Source of the DNA: Acidimicrobiales bacterium | GTDB lineage: Bacteria; Actinomycetota; Acidimicrobiia; Acidimicrobiales; SHLQ01 | NCBI GenBank assembly: GCA_020628865.1 | Contig: JAHDEJ010000042.1 | Span: forward strand, 1 to 38,277 | Length of the DNA stretch: 38,277 nucleotides | Reading direction: 5' to 3' | Shown here: positions 14,904-27,160 of the stretch, one piece after another | Layout: each line of letters begins with the position of its first letter | Position numbering within the stretch: position 1 is the stretch's first letter | Made by a program: the position numbers and the translations under genes | The notes under the pieces: generated by a model | Databases searched by the model: none | What the model was told of the DNA's origin: nothing | Seen by the model: only the letters and a program-made list of their open reading frames with translations

Positions 14904-14991
14904 GGAGGAGTGCGAGAGCGGCCGAATCGGCACGCTTGGAAAGCGTGTGTGGGGAAACTCACCGTGGGTTCGAATCCCACCTCCTCCGCCA
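14904..14991 (+). tRNA. tRNA-Ser (anticodon GGA)
   Basis: The acceptor GGAGGAG pairs with CTCCTCC (14981-14987), followed by discriminator G and an encoded CCA (14989-14991). Stem CACGC / GCGTG encloses the loop TTGGAAA, giving anticodon GGA (reads UCC and UCU). A long variable arm and the T-loop GGTTCGAATCC follow. Confidence 0.95.
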
Positions 14992-14999
14992 AGAGTTCT

Positions 15000-16055
15000 T
15001 CACGTCAACGCCGAGTTCGGCCCGGTCTTGAGCTGGCTCAAGGACCTCGTGTGATCGTCACGGCGGCGGTCGTCGGCAAGCCGCGCAAGCTTGTCTCGAT
15101 CGATGCCGTCGGCGTCGACGACGGCGACCTTGCAATCGGACACCGCTCGCAGGGTCGACGTTCGTGCCCCCGCCTCCATCACCGCTCGCTCGCCCGCAAC
15201 CGCCCCGGGACCGAGCTCGGCCACAGGGTCACCGTCCACCTCCACGCCGAGAATGCCGTTCAGCAGAAGGAAGAGCTCCGAACCGGGCTCGCCCTGCTCC
15301 ACGAGGGTCGACCCTTCGGCCACCCGTCGAATCGATGGCTTGGCGCCGCCTCGCATAATCGACTCCTGGAGACCCCGTTCCAGCAGGCTCTCGACTTCAC
15401 TGACCCTTGCGGGCGAGTCCTCATCACCCCAGGGCGTGCGGCGGCCGAACGACGAGTTCATCCACCGCTTGTATTCGGCGACACTGCTCTTGCCCACGAG
15501 CGCACCGTCATCACCGAAGACCCAGTGCCGGGGAAACCCTGATGCACCGGCGAGCTCGGCCGTGTGAGTGCCATCGGTGTGAATCGTCAGCTCGAGCGTC
15601 GTCCAGACGGTCGGAGCGACGTATTGCACGAAGGGAGGATGCGCGACCGTGCGCGGCATGGGGGCACCGGTGCGGCCGCCGACCGTCTGCCGGAACCGCA
15701 CCGCCGATCCTGATTGCTCAGGCTCCATCTGCAGATCCGGCAAGCTCGTCGCTGCGAACGTGACCGAGCCGACACCGAGACCGACCGTCGTTCCGCCCAT
15801 CACCCCGCCGCCGCAGTATCCGGCGTCGACGACCGCTCCGTCGTCGACCTCGACGAACGCCCGAAGTTCGTTCACGAATCGGAAGCGGTCGGCAACCCGA
15901 AGCTCCTCGATCGCAGCCGACACGTCCGCACCCAGATGGTCCGGGGGTGGCGGATCGTGATGGGCAAGCTTCATCCGTGTCGCCGCCCGGCCCATCCCCT
16001 CCAGCAGATCCGATGGGATCCACGACACCGTGGTGACGCTCCGCTCAATTCGCAT
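15000..16055 (-). CDS. Cyclic-nucleotide-binding domain protein
   Basis: This 351-residue cytosolic protein has a C-terminal cNMP-binding domain at about 245-340. The phosphate-binding cassette reads PGAVAGERAVMEAGARTSTL, with the Glu and Arg that bind the cyclic phosphate and ribose in CRP/PKA-type domains. The N-terminal 240 residues are not recognised: no HTH, kinase or channel motif, but a Gly-rich stretch (CGGGVMGGTTVGLGVG) and beta-rich sequence. The ATG at 16055 is chosen because GGAGGAG sits just upstream; a longer GTG-started form is unlikely. It is divergent, 184 bp away, from the receiver-cyclase gene, so it is the best candidate effector of that cyclase. Confidence 0.8.
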   Translation of the reverse strand: MRIERSVTTVSWIPSDLLEGMGRAATRMKLAHHDPPPPDHLGADVSAAIEELRVADRFRFVNELRAFVEVDDGAVVDAGYCGGGVMGGTTVGLGVGSVTFAATSLPDLQMEPEQSGSAVRFRQTVGGRTGAPMPRTVAHPPFVQYVAPTVWTTLELTIHTDGTHTAELAGASGFPRHWVFGDDGALVGKSSVAEYKRWMNSSFGRRTPWGDEDSPARVSEVESLLERGLQESIMRGGAKPSIRRVAEGSTLVEQGEPGSELFLLLNGILGVEVDGDPVAELGPGAVAGERAVMEAGARTSTLRAVSDCKVAVVDADGIDRDKLARLADDRRRDDHTRSLSQLKTGPNSALT

Positions 16056-16239
16056 CGCTCCTCCTTCACGTACGACTCCTGAAGCAACGATGCGGAACGC
16101 TCCCTGCGCCGTCGACCGTGCCCAGCCGTCGACCGGACGGGGGTTAACCCGCACCTCGTTCGGGCCTCAGCACGCTGTCCCCGGCCGCCGGACCTCATCA
16201 CAATCGAAATGACAACCGACCGCAGTGAGGGCACGCCCG

Positions 16240-17544
16240 ATGACGATTTCCATCTTTCTCGCCGACGACAATCTGATCGTCCGTGAGGGCGTGCGGGCTC
16301 TGGTCGAGCTCGAGGACGACTTCGAGATCGTGGGGCAGGGCGCCGACTACGACGAGCTGGTCGCCGGCGCCGAAGACACGAATCCTCAGGTCGTGGTCAC
16401 CGACATCCGAATGCCACCCAACTTCGCCCGGGAGGGCATCGACGCGGCGAAGCATGTGCGGCGGCGTCATCCGGGAACCGGCGTCGTGATCCTGTCGCAG
16501 TACGACGACCCGGACTACGCCGTGTCGCTGTTGTCCGAGGGTGCTGCCGGGTACGCCTACCTGCTGAAGGATCGAGTCGGCGAAGGCGACCAGCTCGCCC
16601 GAGCCATCCGCGAGGTTGCGTCCGGCGGTTCGCTGCTCGACTCGAAGATCGTCGAAGGCCTGACGACGCCGGTGCGGGCCGACGGGTCGCTCTCCCCCGA
16701 GGATGAGCACCTGCTCCAGCAGGTGGCGGAGGGCCGGTCGATCAAGGCCATCGCCACTCAGTTGCAGACGACGACGACCGCCGTCAACGCGGCGATCGAG
16801 CAGCTCTTCACCACCCTTGCCGAGGGCACCGCCGCCGGCCATTCCGACAGCCTCGCCCGGCTGCGGATGCTCCAGCAGGCGATCGTGGAACGCAAGGAGC
16901 AGGGCGATGCGCTCGAGCGGCTGCTGCCCGGTGGGGTGTCCGAGCAGATCCTCGACGCCGGCCGCCGGCCCGGCGAAACCGAAGAGCTCACCGTCACCGT
17001 GCTGATGTCCGACATCCGGGGGTACACGACCATCGCCGAGCACGCCGACCCGAGTGTGCTCGCCGGGCAGCTCCACGAACATCGAGCCGCCATGAACCAG
17101 GCGATCCTCGCGCAGAACGGAACCGTCATGCAGTTCGTCGGCGACGCGGTGATGGCGGTGTTCGGCGCGCCGGTGCCCCAGGCCGACCACGCCGATCGCG
17201 CGGTCGAGGCCGCCCGAACGATGCACGCCGCCCAACGGAACCTCAACGAACAGTGGCGGGCCGAGGGGCAGGCGCCGTTCGAGCTAGGTCTGGGCGTGTC
17301 GACCGGGCTCGTCGCTGCCGCGCTGTTGGGTTCGGCCGAGCGGCTCGAGTACTCACTCGTGGGCGACACGGTCAACCTCACGCAACGGCTCCAACAATGG
17401 GCCGAACCCGGCGAGACCGTGCTGAGCGAGCCCACCTGGGAGGCGATCGGCGAGAAGCCCGAGTCCGACCGACTCGAACCTGCAATGGTGAAGGGCAGAG
17501 ACACCCCCGTGTCCGCCTATCGATTTCCGCAGAGGACGGCATGA
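16240..17544 (+). CDS. Receiver - LuxR-like HTH - class III cyclase fusion
   Basis: This 434-residue protein has three parts. Residues 1-125 form a receiver with phospho-acceptor D55 (VVVTDIRMPP) and K110. Residues about 150-195 look like a worn NarL/LuxR HTH (LSPEDEHLLQQVAEGRSIKA). Residues about 245-430 form a class III nucleotidyl cyclase with metal-binding D258 (LMSDIRGYTT) and D302 (VGDAVMAVFG), and N379 and R383 (GDTVNLTQRL). By my alignment the adenine-specifying Lys/Asp pair is Q298/S372, so cAMP versus cGMP is open. The ATG at 16240 starts the receiver. Its stop overlaps the first kinase gene (ATGA). The receiver closely resembles that of the NarL-type regulator at 22154, so the protein probably arose by fusing a cyclase to that family. 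Confidence 0.9.
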   Translation: MTISIFLADDNLIVREGVRALVELEDDFEIVGQGADYDELVAGAEDTNPQVVVTDIRMPPNFAREGIDAAKHVRRRHPGTGVVILSQYDDPDYAVSLLSEGAAGYAYLLKDRVGEGDQLARAIREVASGGSLLDSKIVEGLTTPVRADGSLSPEDEHLLQQVAEGRSIKAIATQLQTTTTAVNAAIEQLFTTLAEGTAAGHSDSLARLRMLQQAIVERKEQGDALERLLPGGVSEQILDAGRRPGETEELTVTVLMSDIRGYTTIAEHADPSVLAGQLHEHRAAMNQAILAQNGTVMQFVGDAVMAVFGAPVPQADHADRAVEAARTMHAAQRNLNEQWRAEGQAPFELGLGVSTGLVAAALLGSAERLEYSLVGDTVNLTQRLQQWAEPGETVLSEPTWEAIGEKPESDRLEPAMVKGRDTPVSAYRFPQRTA

Positions 17545-19652
17545 CGATGACCGATGCGCAGCTGATCCGGACGGGTCGGATCATCTCGGGCGCGGCCGTC
17601 CTGATGGCGGTGATCGGCCTGGGCACGGCGATCGCCATCGGCCGGTGGGAGTCGGCCTGGAACTCGCTCACCCCGGTGAATGCATTGATCGGGCTCGGCT
17701 TCGGCGCGCTGGCGTGGACCGTCCTCCCGAGCCAACCGCGCAATCGGTCGATCTGGATCTACACCGTGGCCGCGTTCTTCGGCGGGCTCTATGCGATGGC
17801 CCTGGTGGGGATCGTCCTCCAGATTCCCGTCGAGACCGAACTCGCCGCTCAAGAGCTGATTCCGGCCGACCATCCGTTGTCCGTGGCGATCTTCGCGACC
17901 GCCATTTCGTCGGCGTGGATGCCGGCGTTCCTGCTTCCGCTCACCCTCGCCATGCTGCACTTCCCCGACGGAGATTTTCCCTCACCCCGATGGCAGCCCG
18001 TGGCGCGGTTCGTGGCCACGATGTTCATCCTCGCCATGGTGTTCCAGATCGCCGCCAATCACCCCCGGAGCACCGGCGCGGTCCCCGTGCCGGGCGGAGT
18101 GGTCAGCACGATCGCCGAGATCCTCGGCAACATCACCCTCGCCTCCGGACTCGTATGCATCGGATCCCTCGTCGTTCGCTACCGGAGCGGGTCGGGCGTG
18201 GTGCGGCGCCAGATTCGGTGGATTGCGTTCGCAACCGCCTTCCTGGGGCTCGGAGAAATCGCGAAGCGGTTGACGTACGGCAGCAGCGTGGGCGATCCGA
18301 CGGTCGAGAACGTCCTGAACCTCATTCCGCTGGTGGTCATGATCGCAGCGTTCTCCGTGGCGATCACCAAGTACCGGCTCTACGACATCGATGTCATCAT
18401 CTCGAAGTCCGTCACCTACCTCGGGCTCGCCGCGGTGGTCTCTGGTTTGTACGCCCTCGTCGTGGTGCTGCCGTTGTTTCTCCTCGGTCGCTCCGAGACC
18501 GACGACCCCGGGGTGTTGTTGCCCATCCTCGCGACCGCCGTCGTTGCGATTGCCTTCGAACCCGCTCGATCTCGCCTCGAGCGTTTCGCCAACCGCATGG
18601 TCTACGGCGACCGGACGACACCACACGATGTGCTCGCCCAGGTGACCGGGCTGCTCGCCGACGCGCGCCGTGGCGCCGCCGCCCAGGACGTCGCCCGACT
18701 GCTCGCCGAAGGGACCGGCGCCGACCGGGCCACGGTCTGGCTGGCCGACGACGACACACTCACGCCGGACGGGGTCTGGCCCGCGGGGTCGGTTGCATCG
18801 CCAGACTCGGCCGCTGACTCCGCCGACGTGGAGCTTTCCCTGTCCCAACCGGTCGTCCACCTCGACGAGACGTTTGGAGCCGTCGGGATCATGAAGCCGA
18901 AGAACGACCCGCTCACTCCGGCCGACCGGGAGCTCGTCGCCGACGTGGCCGCCGGCTCGGGCCTCCTCCTGCGAAACATCCGACTCAACCGGGACCTGGT
19001 CGCCCGGGCTGAGGACGTCCGCGGTTCTCGACGCCGACTGATCGCTGCGCAGGATGCGCAACGACGTCGACTGGAACGAGACCTCCACGACGGCGCCCAG
19101 CAACGCGTCGTCGCACTGAAGGTGAAACTCGGTATCGCCCGAACCCTCGCCCAACGCGAGGGCGCCGATGCACTCGACGAGCGGCTCGCCGGTCTGGCCA
19201 CGGCCATCGACGGTGCGGTCGACGAGCTCCGCGGCGTCGCCCACGGCATCTATCCCCCGCTGCTGGAGACCGAGGGACTCCGGGTTGCGCTCCAGGCGCT
19301 GGAACGGTCATCGACCTCCACGAGCATCCCGGCCGAGGTGCAGACGGTCGACATCGAGCGGTACGACCGATCCGTCGAGGAGACCGCCTACTTCTGCGTC
19401 GTCGAGACGCTCCAGCAGGCCCGCATGTCGGGAGCCGAGCGAGCCTGGGTGAAGCTCGCCGGTGACGATGCGGACCTCCGCATCAGCCTCCGCCTCGCCG
19501 GAGGCGTCGACACCGCCGACCTCACCGCCATCGTCGATCGGGTGGATGCACTCGGCGGCCACCTGCAGGCGACCGTGGCGGCCGACGACGATCGTCTGGT
19601 CACCGTTCGCCTTCCCCTGAGCCCTGCCGAGTACAAGGGAGCGCTCGCATGA
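17541..19652 (+). CDS. Membrane histidine kinase A: His kept, ATPase degenerate
   Basis: This 703-residue protein has about eight hydrophobic segments (residues 1-350) and a juxtamembrane KYRLYDIDVIISKSVTYL segment. A GAF-like region (about 385-480) and a HisKA_3 dimerisation domain with H516 in ERDLHDGAQQRVVALK follow. The domain that should bind ATP is badly eroded. The N box reads ETLQQARMSGA (N replaced by Q626), no DxGxG box is present, and the G boxes are replaced by LTAIVDRVD and DDDRLVTV. It can probably accept but not donate phosphate by itself. The ATG overlaps the cyclase stop and its stop overlaps the second kinase's ATG, so the three are one operon. The open frame extends upstream of 17541, but that part is a shadow of the cyclase gene. 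Confidence 0.87.
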   Translation: MTMTDAQLIRTGRIISGAAVLMAVIGLGTAIAIGRWESAWNSLTPVNALIGLGFGALAWTVLPSQPRNRSIWIYTVAAFFGGLYAMALVGIVLQIPVETELAAQELIPADHPLSVAIFATAISSAWMPAFLLPLTLAMLHFPDGDFPSPRWQPVARFVATMFILAMVFQIAANHPRSTGAVPVPGGVVSTIAEILGNITLASGLVCIGSLVVRYRSGSGVVRRQIRWIAFATAFLGLGEIAKRLTYGSSVGDPTVENVLNLIPLVVMIAAFSVAITKYRLYDIDVIISKSVTYLGLAAVVSGLYALVVVLPLFLLGRSETDDPGVLLPILATAVVAIAFEPARSRLERFANRMVYGDRTTPHDVLAQVTGLLADARRGAAAQDVARLLAEGTGADRATVWLADDDTLTPDGVWPAGSVASPDSAADSADVELSLSQPVVHLDETFGAVGIMKPKNDPLTPADRELVADVAAGSGLLLRNIRLNRDLVARAEDVRGSRRRLIAAQDAQRRRLERDLHDGAQQRVVALKVKLGIARTLAQREGADALDERLAGLATAIDGAVDELRGVAHGIYPPLLETEGLRVALQALERSSTSTSIPAEVQTVDIERYDRSVEETAYFCVVETLQQARMSGAERAWVKLAGDDADLRISLRLAGGVDTADLTAIVDRVDALGGHLQATVAADDDRLVTVRLPLSPAEYKGALA

Positions 19653-21716
19653 GCGAGGCGAACACACCCACGTGGCCGCGCCGCTTCGCCGTGGCCACCA
19701 GCAGCCTCTACCTCGTCGCCACAATGGTGCAGTTGAGCCAAGGGCTGGGCTTCAATCTCGGCACCCTCGTCGGCTTCGGGGCGTACGTCGCCATCGGCAA
19801 CCTGGTCCTACTCCGGCGCTCGGGCAACCTCGTGGGTGCGGCGCTCGCCTCGTACGGCACGCTCTTCGCCTTCGGGAACGCTGGGCTCGCAACGGCCGAC
19901 TCATTCGATGCGGCCGGCGATCTGTCTGCGGCAGCAGCGGTAACGATCCCGACGGGAATGGCGACGTCTGCCGGCATCTGGATTGTGGCCGCCGTCTGGC
20001 TCTTGTTTCCGGACGGACGGCTCAGCACTCCCCTCGACCGCAAGCTCTTGATCGGAAGCGGGATCGTTGCGGTTTTTACAGCGACCCTCGGCGTCTTCGC
20101 CGCTCCGCAGGCACTGCCCGAGACCACCCGATACACCCATCCGTTCGTGAACGATGCGCTCGCCAACTTCCTTCGGTCGATGCACGACGGGCTCGTCGGA
20201 GGGACGTTCCTCTTCGGGTACTTCGTCGCCGCTCGGGTGGTGCTCCGCTACCGTCACGGTGATCCGGTCGAGCGCCGGCAGGCCGGCTGGATCGCCGTGG
20301 CCGCCATCTTCGCCATCACCGTGCTCCTCGGCAACGCGTTTCTCCAGCCGCTCGGCACCGACACCCGTGCGTTTCTGCTGATCGACGCCGTCGCCGTCGC
20401 TGCGATCCCGCTGGGCGTCGGGATCGCCATCTTCCGATACCGGCTCTACAACATCGACGTCATCATCAGTCGGTCGGTCACGTTCGGCTCCCTCGCCGCC
20501 TTCATCGGCCTCGTGTACATCGGTATCGTCGTGGGCGTCGGTGGGCTCGTCGGCGATGACGCCGGATTCGGCCTGTCGATCGCAGCGTCGGCGTTCGTGG
20601 CCATGGCGTTCCAGCCGGTACGCCGGCGAGTCGAACGATGGGCGAATCGGCTCGTGTACGGCGACAAGGCGACACCCCACGAGGTGCTCGTCCGCTTCTC
20701 CCGCCGATCGGCCGAGCTCACCGACCAGGACCTCCTCGCTCGCGTTCCGCAGATGATCGTGGACGGAACGGGTGCCGCAACCGCCACACTCTGGACGCGC
20801 TCCGACGACGGATTCCGAACCGAGGCGTCGTGGCCGGACGCGCCGTCCGACCGTGTGCTCGAACCCGGCCCGTCCTTCACGGACCCGACCGCCGATCACT
20901 CGGTGCCGATCACCCACGACGATGAGCTGCTGGGCGGCATCTCGCTGATCAACCATCGAGGCGACACCCTGGCCCCAGCCGAGACGACGCTCCTCACAAA
21001 CCTGGCGTCGGGCCTCGGCCTGTCGCTCCGCAACGCCAGCCTGACCGCCCAGCTGCGGCGGCAGGTGGCCGAGCTCGAGTCATCCCGAGAACGGGTGCTG
21101 ACCGCCACCGACGAAGCTCGACGTGCGCTCGAGAACGACCTCGACAGCGGCCCGCAACAGAAGCTCGTTGCCCTCAAGGTGATGCTCGGACCGATCCGCA
21201 AGCTCGCCGAGCGCAGCGGAGCCGAGAAGACCGCCGGGCTGCTGACCTCGCTCGAGGTCGAAGCCGGCGAGGCGATCAAGGCGGTTCGTGACTTCGCCAG
21301 CGGCGTCTACCCGCCGCTCCTCGAGGCCGAGGGGTTGGCGGCCGCGGTGATCCAGCAGACCCGTGATTTGATGCCACCGGTGACGGTCCGAGGCGACACG
21401 CAGGCCCGGTTCCCCCGCGACGTCGAAGCCGCCGCCTACTTCTCGATTCTCGAGGCGTTGCAGAACACAGCCAAGTACGCAGATGCGTCGAACATCGTCG
21501 TCCGACTTGCGTCGACCGACGGGGTGCTCACGTTCTCCGTCGACGACGACGGCGACGGATTCGATGCCGACAGCATCAGCCCGGGAGCCGGCCTGGTCGG
21601 CATGGCCGATCGGCTCGACACGGTGGGCGGCACCATCTCGATCGATTCAACGCCGGGGCCGTGGCACAACGGTGAGCGGCACGATTCCGGCCCAGGTGCT
21701 CGTCGCCGCCGGCTAG
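19649..21716 (+). CDS. Membrane histidine kinase B: ATPase kept, His lost; 1-nt frameshift
   Basis: This paralogue of kinase A is 688 residues if a single base is removed near 21655-21660. It has about eight hydrophobic segments, RYRLYNIDVIISRSVTFG, a GAF-like region and a HisKA_3 domain. The phospho-acceptor motif reads ENDLDSGPQQKLVALK, with D499-S500 in place of His-Asp. The ATP-binding domain is well kept: N box E602ALQN606TAKYA, D box DDDGDGFD (632-639), and GAGLVGMADRL. In the literal frame the end after STPG is nonsense. One base less gives STPG-RGTTVSGTIPA (the final G box) and a TAG at 21714-21716. The literal frame otherwise runs on to 22891, antisense to two regulators. It either donates phosphate to kinase A's H516 or is a pseudogene. 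Confidence 0.82.
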
Positions 21717-22087
21717 CCGGCCGAGGCCCGAGCCCACGCCGACTCGAGCTCGTCCATGCTGAACTCCGACTTCGGCACGAAGGCGAATGCGCCGGCAGCG
21801 AGCGCCGGCTCTTCGAAGCCGCCGGACTCGTGGGTGGACATGACGAGCACGTGCGGCGGATCGTCGAGCTGACGAATCATGCGAGTGGCCTCCAAGCCAT
21901 CGACCACCGGCATTTGCACGTCCATCAGCACGAGGTCCGGACGGAGTCGTTCGGCCAGCTCGAAGCCGAGCTGTCCGTTCTCGGCTTCACCGACGACCTC
22001 GAACCCATCCGTGAGTTCCACGACGAGCCGGGAGGCGTCCCGAAACGGCGATTGGTCATCCACGATCAGCACTCGAACGTCGGTCAT
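21713..22087 (-). CDS. Single-domain response regulator
   Basis: This 124-residue protein is a lone receiver. The acidic pair is D10-D11 (LIVDDQ), the phospho-acceptor D56 (LVLMDVQMP), with T85 and K106 (FVPKSE). It has no output domain, so it would act as a phosphate sink, shuttle or protein-protein switch. Its stop overlaps the restored end of kinase B by 4 nt on the opposite strand. It lies 66 nt downstream of the NarL-type regulator on the same strand and is probably co-transcribed with it. Confidence 0.92.
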   Translation of the reverse strand: MTDVRVLIVDDQSPFRDASRLVVELTDGFEVVGEAENGQLGFELAERLRPDLVLMDVQMPVVDGLEATRMIRQLDDPPHVLVMSTHESGGFEEPALAAGAFAFVPKSEFSMDELESAWARASAG

Positions 22088-22153: not shown

Positions 22154-22822
22154 TCACCCTGCGCCAGCGCCCAGGTACACGAGCACGGCGCGCACGCGCC
22201 GGTGCGTCTCCGAGCTCTGCTCGAGGTCGAACTTCATGAAGATCGAATTGATGTGCTTCTCCACCGACCGCGCGGAAATGAAGAGTGCCTCACCGATCCC
22301 GGCATTGCTCGCGCCGGTGGCCATCTGCTCGAGGACCTCCCGCTCACGATCGGTCAGCCGTTCGAGGACCGACGCCTCGTCCCGGGAGTGGTCGAGCATG
22401 AGGGCGTTGACGACCTTCGGGTCGACGACCGTTCCGCCCTCCGACACGCGACGGATCGCCTCGTACAGCTCGTTCCCATCACCGACGCGCTCCTTCAGCA
22501 GATAGGCGCGACCTTCGGATCCGTCCTCGAAGAGACGAACCGCGTAGGCCGGCTCCACGAACTGGCTGAGCACCACCACGCCCATCGTCGGGTGGTCCCG
22601 CCGAACCCGACCGGCCGCCTGAATGCCCTCGTCGGTCTGGCTCGGAGGCATTCGGATGTCGGTGACGACGACGTCCGGGACGAACTCGTCGATTGCGGCG
22701 ACGAGATCGCTCAGCGATCCGCAGGACCCGACGAGTTCGAGCTCGTCTTCGAGTCCGATGACGGTGGCGATGCCCTCGCGCATGAGGAAGTTGTCTTCCG
22801 CTATGACCACCCGCAACACCAT
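22154..22822 (-). CDS. NarL/FixJ-type response regulator
   Basis: This 222-residue DNA-binding regulator has a receiver with D55 (VVVTDIRMPP) and K110 (AYLLKERVGDG), then a LuxR HTH at about 155-215 (LERLTDREREVLEQMATGAS, FISARSVEKHINSIFMKF). HisKA_3 kinases normally pair with this class, so the A/B kinases in the opposite operon are the likely partners. Its receiver shares long identical stretches with the receiver of the cyclase fusion (VVVTDIRMPP; AYLLK-RVG-G). They may therefore compete for the same kinase. Confidence 0.93.
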   Translation of the reverse strand: MVLRVVIAEDNFLMREGIATVIGLEDELELVGSCGSLSDLVAAIDEFVPDVVVTDIRMPPSQTDEGIQAAGRVRRDHPTMGVVVLSQFVEPAYAVRLFEDGSEGRAYLLKERVGDGNELYEAIRRVSEGGTVVDPKVVNALMLDHSRDEASVLERLTDREREVLEQMATGASNAGIGEALFISARSVEKHINSIFMKFDLEQSSETHRRVRAVLVYLGAGAG

Positions 22823-23995: not shown

Positions 23996-26900
23996 TCAGT
24001 CGGCGGCGTCGGTGACCCGGACGGTCATGATCTGCGTGTCCCTGAGGCCGTCGAGATCGGTGACGGTGACCTCGACCTCGTAGTCGTTGTCGGCGTCGAG
24101 GTCGGCCGGAGCCTCGAAGTCCGGCGTTGCAAGGAACGTGAGCAGGCCGTCCGTCGCGCCCAGCGCGAAGAGGGCGTTGTCCTCTCCGCCGATGGTTGTC
24201 GTGAACGAGTAGACGAGATCGCTGCTGTCGCCATCGGGATCGGTTGCGTCGACGTCGGCGACGAAGTTGTCGACCGAAATCAGTGTTCCGGATTCGTCCA
24301 CACCCACGCCGGTTCCCACGAGATCGTCATCGCCGCCCAGACCACGGATCCACACGAGTGCGCCGGCCGAGTCGTAGCGGGCGACGAACACGTCTTCCAC
24401 ACCCGATGCCGTGAGGGCGTCGATGTTCGGACCCGGGTTGAAGTCCACCGAGCTCTGGAAGTAGCCGGTGAGGTAGACGTCGCCACCGGCGTCGACGTCC
24501 ACGCCGGCGCCACGGTCGTCCTCCGGCCCGCCGATCGAGATGGTCCACACATGGTCGCCGGCCGAATCGAGCTTGGAGACGAAGATGTCGAAGCCACCGA
24601 ACGCCGTGTGCTCATCCACTCCGGCTCCGGGGTCGAAGTCCACCGTCCCCTGGAAGAAGCCGGTGGTGTAGACGTTGCCGGATGCATCGATCACCTCAGC
24701 CGAGCTGAGCTCCGACCCGCTCGGCACGAAGACGCCGGTGCCCCAGATGACGGTTCCCGGCGCGTCGGTGTTCTCCGCATGGGCGATCCAGGCCGCATCG
24801 CCGCCACCGTTGCTCTCGATCACCGGCGCCTGCGATCCCGCAACCATGGCACTCCCCGCAAAAGAGACCGCATCGATCTGGCCGAGCGATGTGCTGTGGT
24901 CGTCGCCGTCGAAGAGCCGACCCTCGTCGGTGGGCCCATCCTCGGTCCGAGCGAAGACGAAGATGTCGTCGCCGTCACCCACGAGCGCGCCGCTGGAAAT
25001 CGATCGGTCGAAGGTTGCGTGCACGAGGTCGGTACTCGGGTCGACCCACGCAGCCCGAACCGGTCGATTGGTGGTCGCTCCGTCGAAGTAGAGCGAGAAG
25101 GTGTCGTCAGCTTCGACGACGAGGAGATCGTTCGCCCCTGCGCTCAGCACCGAACCGGTGCTCCCGGGCACGTCCACCGGTCCGAGCGTGGAGAGGGCCA
25201 GGCGGCCGTCGCCGGTGACGAGAAGCGCGTCGACGTCTTCGTCCCACGTGTCGAGGCCGACGGCCGATCCGTCGAAGAAGAGGTCGAGCGTGCCGGCGGT
25301 CGTGTCGCCGAGCGAGGTCGGCACGAGGCGGACCACGTCGGAGTCGTCGATCGGTCCGATCGGATCGAGCGTCATCGGATTCGCCACGCTGAAGAGAATG
25401 GTCGGAAGGCCGCCGGTCTCGATCACGTGCACGGCGTCCACATCACGCCCTGCCAGGCCGATGTCGGAGCCGTCCATCAGTAGCGTCCACGTGTCTGCGG
25501 CGGAATCGAATTCGAGGATGTCTTCGTCCTCGAAGGCGACTCCCCCGACCTCGCCGGAACGAGAGGACGAGACGTGGGCGACGATGTTGCGCTCGAGCAC
25601 CGCGGTGCTGCCGACCTCGATCGAGATCGTCGCCGTTGTCGAGCCCTCGGTGTTCTCGAGGCGATAGTCGAACGACAGGTCGCCGACGAACCCGGACGCC
25701 GGCGTGTAGGTGAGCGTGCCGATCGAGCTGAGCGTCACGTCGCCGGCCGCCGCACTCACGGTGCCTCCGGCGGCAGTGTCGTCCACGGAGCCGCCGAGGT
25801 CACCACCACCGAACGCCGAGATGGTGGCGGTGGGGTAGCCGAGGTCGTCGTTGTCGCGAACGTCGAGAACGACGAGTTGCGTGTCGGCCGCCGTGGTGAG
25901 GCCGTCGTCGTCGACGGCGATCGGCTGCGCATGCACCGCTGTCGTCTCCGCCGCAGTGTTGTTGGTGGTGTTCGGATCCTCGAAGCCACTCGAGCCGATG
26001 ACGGTCGTCTCCAAGAGGCCCCGCACCCCAACATCCGGGGAGATGGCGAGCGTATAGACGACGCTGTCGCCGGCGGCGATCGTGCCGAGCGAGCAGACGA
26101 GGCCGTTCGGATCCTCGGCGCAGCCGCTGGACGAGTCTAGCTCCAAACCCACCTCAAGGGTGGACACGGCCGTCACGCCCACGGCCGGAGACGGACCGGC
26201 GTTGAACACCTCGATGGTCTGCACGAGCGTGGTGGCGTCGTCGATCGGGTCGGCCGACTCGGTGATCGTGACCGACACGTCGGCCAGCGGCTTGCGAATG
26301 ACCATGCCGTCGATCTGCTCGCCGCCGAATCCGTGTTCGTCCCCGTCGAAGAACTGGCTGAACGAGCCGGAGGTCGGGTCGCCAGTGCTTCCCGTGAAGA
26401 CGAGGCTGTCGTCTGAATCTCCGGTGAGCGCGCCGATCGTGTAGTTCGCATTCGACGACAGGTGAATCTCGTCGGTGTCGACATCGATCCAGGCACTGCC
26501 GGCGTCGCCGGTGAAGCCAACATCGCTCGAATCGACGAATCGCTCGAACGTCTGATCCGGGCTGAAGACCATCAGGTCCTCGTCGCCACCACTCACCGTG
26601 CCACCCCCCGTGGCCGGAACCGACGAGCCACCGACGGTCGAGATCACGAGGCGGCCATCGCCGAGAAACGCAATCGAGTCGATGTCCTCACCGTTCGCGT
26701 CCAGATCCACATCGGAGCCGTCGAGCCACAGTGCGAAGCTGCCCGCAGTCGTGTCGCCCAGCGAGGTCGGCGTGAACGTGACGATGTCCGAATCGTCGAC
26801 CGCCCCGAGACCGGTGATCGTGGTTGCCTGCTGGAAGCTCATGTAGATCGTCGGGAACTCCGCCCACGGATCATCGATGTGGAACGCGTTGACGTCCACC

Positions 26901-27160
26901 CCACCCAGCCCGACATCCGATCCGTCGAACCACCGCTCCCACGTGTCCGAGATCGGCTCGAAGAGCAGGATGTCCTCGTCGGCGAACGACACACCGCCGA
27001 CCGAACCGCTGGAGGAGGACGACAGATAGAGCGCCGTGAAGGTGTCCCCGGCAGTATCGGCGCGGACTGGCGCCACGACCCCGGCAACGACCATCAGCAC
27101 CACGATCGCCGCAAAGCGGCCGACCGAACACGCTCGATGGAACGTCCTTCGTTCTTCCAT
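23996..27160 (-). CDS. Large secreted modular repeat protein
   Basis: This 1054-residue protein has a Sec signal peptide (RFAAIVVLMVVAGVVAPVRA, cut after A34). A module of about 250 residues occurs twice, at about 38-290 and 528-770, beginning SSSSSGSVGGVSFADEDIL and SSSRSGEVGGVAFEDEDIL and sharing DSDIV/SLGDTTAG phrases. Between the copies lie a DUF11-type domain (about 291-400) and a bacterial Ig-like domain (about 410-520). SBBP-type beta-propeller repeats follow (about 800-925, DASGNVYTTGFF...GGFDIFVSKLDSAG) and then one cadherin-like repeat to the end. The last propeller repeat stops abruptly (VGVDESG) and runs straight into the cadherin-like domain, as if a segment had been deleted. There is no C-terminal sorting signal. 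Very acidic, so probably calcium-binding and extracellular. Confidence 0.85.
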   Translation of the reverse strand: MEERRTFHRACSVGRFAAIVVLMVVAGVVAPVRADTAGDTFTALYLSSSSSGSVGGVSFADEDILLFEPISDTWERWFDGSDVGLGGVDVNAFHIDDPWAEFPTIYMSFQQATTITGLGAVDDSDIVTFTPTSLGDTTAGSFALWLDGSDVDLDANGEDIDSIAFLGDGRLVISTVGGSSVPATGGGTVSGGDEDLMVFSPDQTFERFVDSSDVGFTGDAGSAWIDVDTDEIHLSSNANYTIGALTGDSDDSLVFTGSTGDPTSGSFSQFFDGDEHGFGGEQIDGMVIRKPLADVSVTITESADPIDDATTLVQTIEVFNAGPSPAVGVTAVSTLEVGLELDSSSGCAEDPNGLVCSLGTIAAGDSVVYTLAISPDVGVRGLLETTVIGSSGFEDPNTTNNTAAETTAVHAQPIAVDDDGLTTAADTQLVVLDVRDNDDLGYPTATISAFGGGDLGGSVDDTAAGGTVSAAAGDVTLSSIGTLTYTPASGFVGDLSFDYRLENTEGSTTATISIEVGSTAVLERNIVAHVSSSRSGEVGGVAFEDEDILEFDSAADTWTLLMDGSDIGLAGRDVDAVHVIETGGLPTILFSVANPMTLDPIGPIDDSDVVRLVPTSLGDTTAGTLDLFFDGSAVGLDTWDEDVDALLVTGDGRLALSTLGPVDVPGSTGSVLSAGANDLLVVEADDTFSLYFDGATTNRPVRAAWVDPSTDLVHATFDRSISSGALVGDGDDIFVFARTEDGPTDEGRLFDGDDHSTSLGQIDAVSFAGSAMVAGSQAPVIESNGGGDAAWIAHAENTDAPGTVIWGTGVFVPSGSELSSAEVIDASGNVYTTGFFQGTVDFDPGAGVDEHTAFGGFDIFVSKLDSAGDHVWTISIGGPEDDRGAGVDVDAGGDVYLTGYFQSSVDFNPGPNIDALTASGVEDVFVARYDSAGALVWIRGLGGDDDLVGTGVGVDESGTLISVDNFVADVDATDPDGDSSDLVYSFTTTIGGEDNALFALGATDGLLTFLATPDFEAPADLDADNDYEVEVTVTDLDGLRDTQIMTVRVTDAAD

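Follow-up and report, generated by a model that had tools for sequence, protein, structure and literature searches.

Two adjacent, overlapping genes for membrane sensor kinases, here called A and B, probably encode two halves of a single membrane histidine kinase, neither of which works without the other; B would phosphorylate A in trans and A would act on regulators. They were found on a contig of an Acidimicrobiales bacterium (the window, that is, the whole of contig G000:C58, 38277 bases, from a draft genome of 5.36 Mb in 113 contigs, 96% complete), and their lesions are reciprocal, a division that relatives throughout a bacterial class have also retained. The genes and sites concerned are the following.

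17541..19652, plus strand: kinase A, with a transmembrane (TM) region, a GAF-like region, a HisKA_3 DHp domain with its His and a degenerate ATPase domain
19086..19088, plus strand: codon of H516 of A, the phospho-acceptor, with D517 and Q521 (DxxxQ) next to it; invariant in an 8-row A-type alignment
19332..19616, plus strand: pseudo-ATPase domain of A, which is without its N, D and G boxes and is predicted to retain the fold (AlphaFold2, Foldseek)
19649..21716, plus strand: kinase B, with a TM region, a GAF-like region, a His-less DHp domain and intact ATPase motifs; frame shifted near 21660
21143..21148, plus strand: codons of D499-S500 of B, at the place of His-Asp

The open reading frame of A (17541-19652, 703 aa) retains H516, D517 and Q521 in RLERDLHDGAQQ and matches Pfam HisKA_3 with 45 bits (cut-off 24). 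There is no HATPase match in A: the N box reads VETLQQARMSGA, the D-box segment SLRLAGGVDT contains no DxGxG, and the ATP lid is deleted. The fold of the ATPase domain is present in the AlphaFold2 model of A (mean predicted local distance difference test score, pLDDT, of 69.5), and this part of the model matched the ATPase domain of VraS (4gt8) in Foldseek with a target TM-score of 0.76, a root mean square deviation of 2.8 and an E-value of 5.9e-4; DesK DHp-ATPase structures matched the model as well. With mean pLDDT values of 69.5 and 68.4 the AlphaFold2 models reach moderate confidence, so the local ATPase-domain match alone was used.

The DHp domain of B reads ENDLDSGPQQ, with D499-S500 where His-Asp is expected, and stays below the HisKA_3 cut-off of 24 bits, with 16.1 bits for the window copy, 17.2 for the copy in locus L065 and a range of 16.1-17.8 bits. 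Its ATPase domain holds N606 in EALQNTAKYA, DDDGDGFD and a normal lid, and exceeds the HATPase_c cut-off of 26.4 both in the window (27.4 bits, up to the frame shift) and in L065 (40.8 bits). Motifs and Pfam matches bear out what the initial annotation had described, an A with the phospho-His H516 but without the N, D and G boxes, and a B with D499-S500, N606 and DDDGDGFD. DxxxQ, a phosphatase motif, is kept in A, and its Asp is lost in B. Both proteins retain their sensor/TM, GAF-like and dimerisation parts.

The reading frame of B as given continues to 22891, antisense through the response regulator genes RR1 and RR2, and an apparent one-base shift lies after STPG at about 21660 (window 21640-21720), in the last strand of the ATPase domain. 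Because the B of L065, a locus from near the window's species, is 98% identical to that of the window and intact to its end, this shift is not part of the lesion pattern; it is a sequencing or assembly error or a private mutation. Where the gene pair had been placed at 17541-21716, the coordinates of A and the start of B hold, and the stop of B at 21714-21716 belongs to another frame. The shift had been missed, as had the receiver-cyclase gene (CYC) that overlaps A and the duplication history with its opposite split.

In the order, a search with A gave 14/198 genomes at E<=1e-40 and a CYC profile gave 29/397 at E<=1e-60, eight listed genomes of the window's genus being absent from the other matches of the CYC profile. 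A B profile gave 11 loci in the genome collection, 20/395 in the class, 6/34 in family f70, 4/50 in family f67 and 55/396 in the phylum at E<=1e-90; the matches of all these searches include complete and tandem kinases besides A/B pairs. The module is scattered unevenly among the genomes, which makes transfer or repeated loss the likely cause.

The lesions themselves are constant. All 14 A-type rows keep the His and have neither the N-box Asn nor DxGxG (the His count combines 12 aligned rows with L135 and L138, read from the locus sequences, and the absence of DxGxG was judged from D-box segments), and in all 15 B-type rows the His is missing and both the N-box Asn and DxGxG are retained. At the His-Asp site of B the first residue is Asp in 15/15 rows and the second is Ser in 14 and Arg in 1. 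The same lesions are found at 38-52% identity between orthologues, with synteny kept; a syntenic module in G052, from another family of the order, has them in A' (45%) and B' (51%), next to a CYC that is 78% identical. As they recur in every A-type and B-type row, the reciprocal lesions are, to judge from these alignments, more than chance. The initial annotation had held that complete orthologues would speak against it, and none occurs among the rows of the A clade (14) or of the B clade (15). Where both kinases of a tandem pair are complete, the pair sits outside the two clades (L140 and others of the phylum).

Full pairs of A and B are present in 12 loci (the window, L065, L060, L061, L062, L063, L067, L131, L132, L133, L135 and L138), and in none of them is either partner complete. 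Loci L128, L129, L136 and L146 duplicate L062, L063, L064 and L070 and were counted once. B comes directly after A in 12/12 loci in which the gene that follows A is readable across both its DHp and its ATPase domain, and A comes directly before B in 12/13, the exception being L134/G567; A stands alone in L068 and L145, where the next gene is cut at the contig end, and B stands alone, also cut at the contig end, in L064 and L130. A failure of the genes to co-occur, the other outcome named at the outset as contrary, was thus not seen going from A to B and was seen once going from B to A. The 4-nt overlap described earlier was confirmed as an ATGA at the A/B junction, with the start of B at 19649 lying within the stop codon of A; over the 13 junctions of A with the next gene (L068 included, its next gene cut) the overlap is ATGA in 11 and GTGA in 2.

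Complete kinases served as the control. Single kinases from CYC loci were complete in 18/18 cases and other chosen kinases in 8/8; two further singles, L088 and L095, were complete and counted apart, and complete kinases of the same family, single or tandem, occur in other CYC loci. Set apart from the 18 were two short CYC-adjacent proteins with a His and no ATP site (L090:9422-10033 and L084:3970-4524), which overlap CYC and, with their DHp His and degraded ATPase part, resemble phosphotransfer proteins of minimal size that descend from a module kinase. A wider sample of 20 more loci, 19 from genomes of the phylum plus L209, added 47 kinase rows (1 a reference B, 3 cut before the His), among which 38 were complete, 5 were His-less with an intact ATP site (L206, L207, L208, L212 and L218), and no further kinase had the His without the ATP site. 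These rows indicate that His loss recurs in tandem arrays. Full-length kinases with a His and a lost ATP site were seen only beside a His-less neighbour, namely A in the 12 readable loci, L142 and L139.

Some of these arrays deserve separate mention. In L206:3632-8166 (G975) Gly takes the place of the His in the first kinase after CYC, and the second kinase has the His and an eroded lid (VHVLGWTNM), which is possibly another split in progress. In L066, from the Chloroflexi metagenome-assembled genome CF_57, the third of three tandem kinases has neither the His nor the ATP-site motifs. The first kinase after CYC bears the His in the A/B loci, L139, L140, L141, L143 and L144; a rule that the His-bearing gene comes first after CYC was dropped, as L142 shows no CYC and the first gene of L206 and of L212 is His-less.

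Rates of nonsynonymous to synonymous substitution (dN/dS) indicate that A and B are both under purifying selection. Over whole genes, four comparisons of A gave dN/dS values of 0.14-0.19 and five of B gave 0.08-0.16, and the most conserved part of B was its His-less DHp domain, at 0-0.10 in the 3 comparisons giving a value. The pseudo-ATPase domain of A is relaxed, at 0.17-0.34, still under 1. Two DHp comparisons had no dS and several dS values were above 1 (saturation), so the range alone was used; the stretches compared ran from stop to stop in several genes and there included some residues upstream of the start.

In a tree of 77 kinases, A and B each formed one clade (support 100/99 for A and 100/100 for B). 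A tree of the TM and GAF regions (50 rows, lesioned parts excluded) agreed with this and joined A with the k2 genes (97/94) and B with the k1 genes (96/89), k1 and k2 being the tandem kinases of sister loci; we call the first group alpha and the second beta. Lineage-specific duplication (A with B, k1 with k2) and positional grouping (A with k1, B with k2) were rejected in approximately unbiased (AU) tests on this tree, with p-values of 0.008, 0.013, 0.015 and 0.009, which are optimistic because the groups were named after a first tree had been seen. In a tree of DHp alone, with too few columns, k1 was not a single group. Given the clade support in the TM and GAF tree and the AU rejection of the other groupings, one older duplication behind both paralogues is favoured.

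The sister loci show what followed. Both tandem genes are complete in L140, and both kinases have the His in L141 and L143. L142 is split the opposite way: k1 (beta) has the His and has lost the N box, and k2 (alpha) has His changed to Arg and an intact ATP site. The four tandem kinases that follow CYC in L139 and L209 (G632:C178) are a complete beta, an alpha with His changed to Asp, a beta with a degraded ATP site and a complete fourth, which is outside the trees. L114 has two alpha genes with His changed to Asp, and in L144, which comes from that genome too, CYC is accompanied by a k1 that bears the His and is cut. Since the kinases of the sister loci belong to both paralogue clades and yet split the opposite way, complementary decay appears from these trees and motifs to be recurrent and role-swapped (L142; in part L139 and L114). 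It is about an even call whether the whole history was one ancestral duplication followed by opposite complementary decay, to alpha His and beta ATPase in the A/B lineage and to beta His and alpha ATPase in L142 (in part L139 and L114). This would amount to natural and repeated subfunctionalisation by which a homodimeric kinase turned into obligate heteromers, possibly forming, by the split-kinase theory taken up below, an ultrasensitive or bistable receiver-cyclase switch.

The genes around A and B include three receivers, all of which keep the phospho-accepting Asp.

15000..16154, minus strand: CNB, with a C-terminal cyclic-nucleotide-binding domain (Pfam cNMP_binding, 52.4 bits), divergent from the operon
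16225..17544, plus strand: CYC, a receiver (D in VVVTDIRM) and a class III nucleotidyl cyclase domain (Pfam Response_reg 53.1 bits, Guanylate_cyc 74.9 bits)
21713..22087, minus strand: RR1, a stand-alone receiver convergent with B (Pfam Response_reg, 83.6 bits), at the same position in related loci
22154..22822, minus strand: RR2, a NarL-type response regulator (receiver and GerE, Pfam), at the same position in related loci

The stop of CYC overlaps the start of A (ATGA). The CYC/A junction is ATGA or GTGA in 10/11 cases and CTGA in the remaining one; CYC is upstream in 9/12 pairs, and two pairs run off the contig. The substrate-selecting residues of CYC look unusual (MQFVGD, GDTVN), and its product could be either cyclic AMP or cyclic GMP. 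Between its two domains CYC has a weak LuxR-like (GerE) match. CNB also adjoins CYC in L060, L061, L065, L131, L132 and many single-kinase loci and is likely the reader of the cyclic nucleotide; its N-terminal part is long and conserved, with no Pfam family above its cut-off there. Elsewhere in the window are two tRNA-Ser genes (CGA and GGA), at 1999-2088 and 14904-14991, and, close to the module, a large open reading frame (23996-27160, minus strand, 1054 aa) with repeat-like text and a signal-peptide-like N-terminal stretch.

A working model can be built from these parts. The two proteins would have arisen by duplication of one complete kinase and complementary loss. A and B would pair through their DHp domains, the ATPase domain of B would phosphorylate H516 of A in trans, and the phosphate would pass from A~P to the receivers encoded next to it, CYC, RR1 and RR2. 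Free or unphosphorylated A could be the phosphatase. The pathway would end in a cyclic-nucleotide signal, with the CNB protein, encoded divergently, as its reader.

By motif and by profile, the His and the ATPase lie on separate proteins, a feature of split histidine kinases of the CheA3/CheA4 type, a class to which A/B may belong. The CheA layout is not present: no HPt or CheW-like domain was found (Pfam, E<=0.1 for A and B of the window, E<=0.01 for relatives), and there are HisKA_3, weak GAF and HATPase_c matches instead. Within the HisKA_3 family (DesK/LiaS/NarX/UhpB type), A has the DHp domain and B the N, D and G boxes of the HATPase, and the trees indicate that B is a HisKA_3 kinase by descent. 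In DivL/CckA and RetS/GacS the partner modulates a complete kinase, and His and ATPase are not reciprocally divided. Both are hetero-complexes of kinases in which one partner is non-canonical or inhibitory (PMC12189002).

The precedent for the principle cited in the initial annotation, CheA3/CheA4 of Rhodobacter sphaeroides, agrees with the published account: the His is likewise on one protein and the ATPase on the other, autophosphorylation takes place only when the two are together, and the His protein also bears the phosphatase (PMC3591291). However, those are CheA-family chemosensory proteins without whole domains, whereas A and B are full-length paralogues of the membrane HisKA_3 type that have reciprocally lost motifs and both keep their dimerisation domains. 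In the theory of split bifunctional kinases, ultrasensitivity or bistability follows if the free His protein is the main phosphatase, and 711 of 42417 HisKA proteins (1.7%) could be such kinases (PMC3591291), so split kinases outside the CheA family have already been conceived in print. Hik36/Hik43 of Synechocystis is called a split histidine kinase, with two interacting proteins acting on one regulator, but it is a CheA gene in two parts set apart in the genome and not a pair of reciprocally lesioned paralogues (PMC7656254).

No natural reciprocal split pair of membrane HisKA_3 kinases was found in the literature searched, which covered few subscription papers. The earlier statement that no precedent is known for membrane HisKA_3 kinases has to be qualified by two cases from the laboratory. 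The engineered DesK heterodimer TM1-DesKC(H188V)/TM5-DesKC is a membrane pair of the DesK type with one His-less subunit and is active, with phosphorylation in trans (PMC8301901); it is a laboratory construct, whereas A/B is natural and conserved and its His-bearing subunit is also without an ATP site. The ChrS pseudokinase and HrrS of Corynebacterium glutamicum are paralogous kinases of an actinobacterium, the ATPase domain of one being destroyed; the pseudokinase arose in laboratory evolution and its His is not used, and native ChrS and HrrS hetero-associate in a two-hybrid assay, whereas the truncated form was not seen to associate (PMC9491836).

Other explanations of the pair have to be weighed. 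It is unlikely, as the strongest of them holds, that B works as a regulatory pseudokinase in the manner of DivL, RetS or ChrS-fs and only tunes A or another kinase, with A receiving phosphate from other kinases of the cell. Other phosphodonors may exist, since the genome has 16 HisKA_3 matches of its own, and known pseudokinase partners can work without His and ATPase (PMC9491836). However, the N box and DxGxG that B keeps in 15/15 rows would be needless for a mere scaffold, the two genes overlap, and the loss of the ATP site in A is accompanied by B in 12/12 readable loci. It is quite improbable that A is a phosphatase or phosphotransfer sink only and that B uses ATP for conformational control and never phosphorylates A; A does have DxxxQ, and its His need not be the product of a kinase, but the acceptor His is invariant in the A clade and the operon would be left without a phosphodonor. 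Least probable, and already largely excluded, is that the genes are decaying copies heading for loss, for which the frame shifts in B and the relaxed ATPase domain of A could be cited, but dN/dS, well below 1 in all values obtained, led us to reject a pseudogene reading, and the lesions and synteny are the same in distant orthologues.

Several observations weigh against A and B as obligate halves. B is frame-shifted in the window, and the B of L138 (G569, L138:7586-9863) is frame-shifted before its DHp domain. L134/G567 has a B that misses its first ~180 residues, with unrelated genes in place of A upstream; A was found neither in the G567 genome nor in G435 (L130, where B runs off the contig), and the pair of L067 had no CYC match in the 3.8 kb upstream. 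Pairing need not mean phosphorylation, because the His of the ChrS pseudokinase is not needed (PMC9491836), and L090 has a lone small His-only protein at CYC without a local ATPase partner, so that a His-only protein may be served from elsewhere. Taken with the constant lesions and gene order described above, the comparison supports well, at the level of sequence, the interpretation first proposed for this pair.

If A and B are the two halves of one kinase, they would be a natural, conserved counterpart of the subunit-complementation experiments made with dimeric kinases, in the form of a membrane sensor kinase active solely as the AB pair. The pair would be clean material for the study of trans phosphorylation and of the passage from homodimer to obligate heterodimer after duplication, for which the sister loci with the opposite split and the complete tandem pair of L140 offer before-and-after states for experiments. 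A/B could also show whether signalling becomes switch-like when kinase and phosphatase are split, in a system that appears to be connected to a cyclic-nucleotide cyclase.

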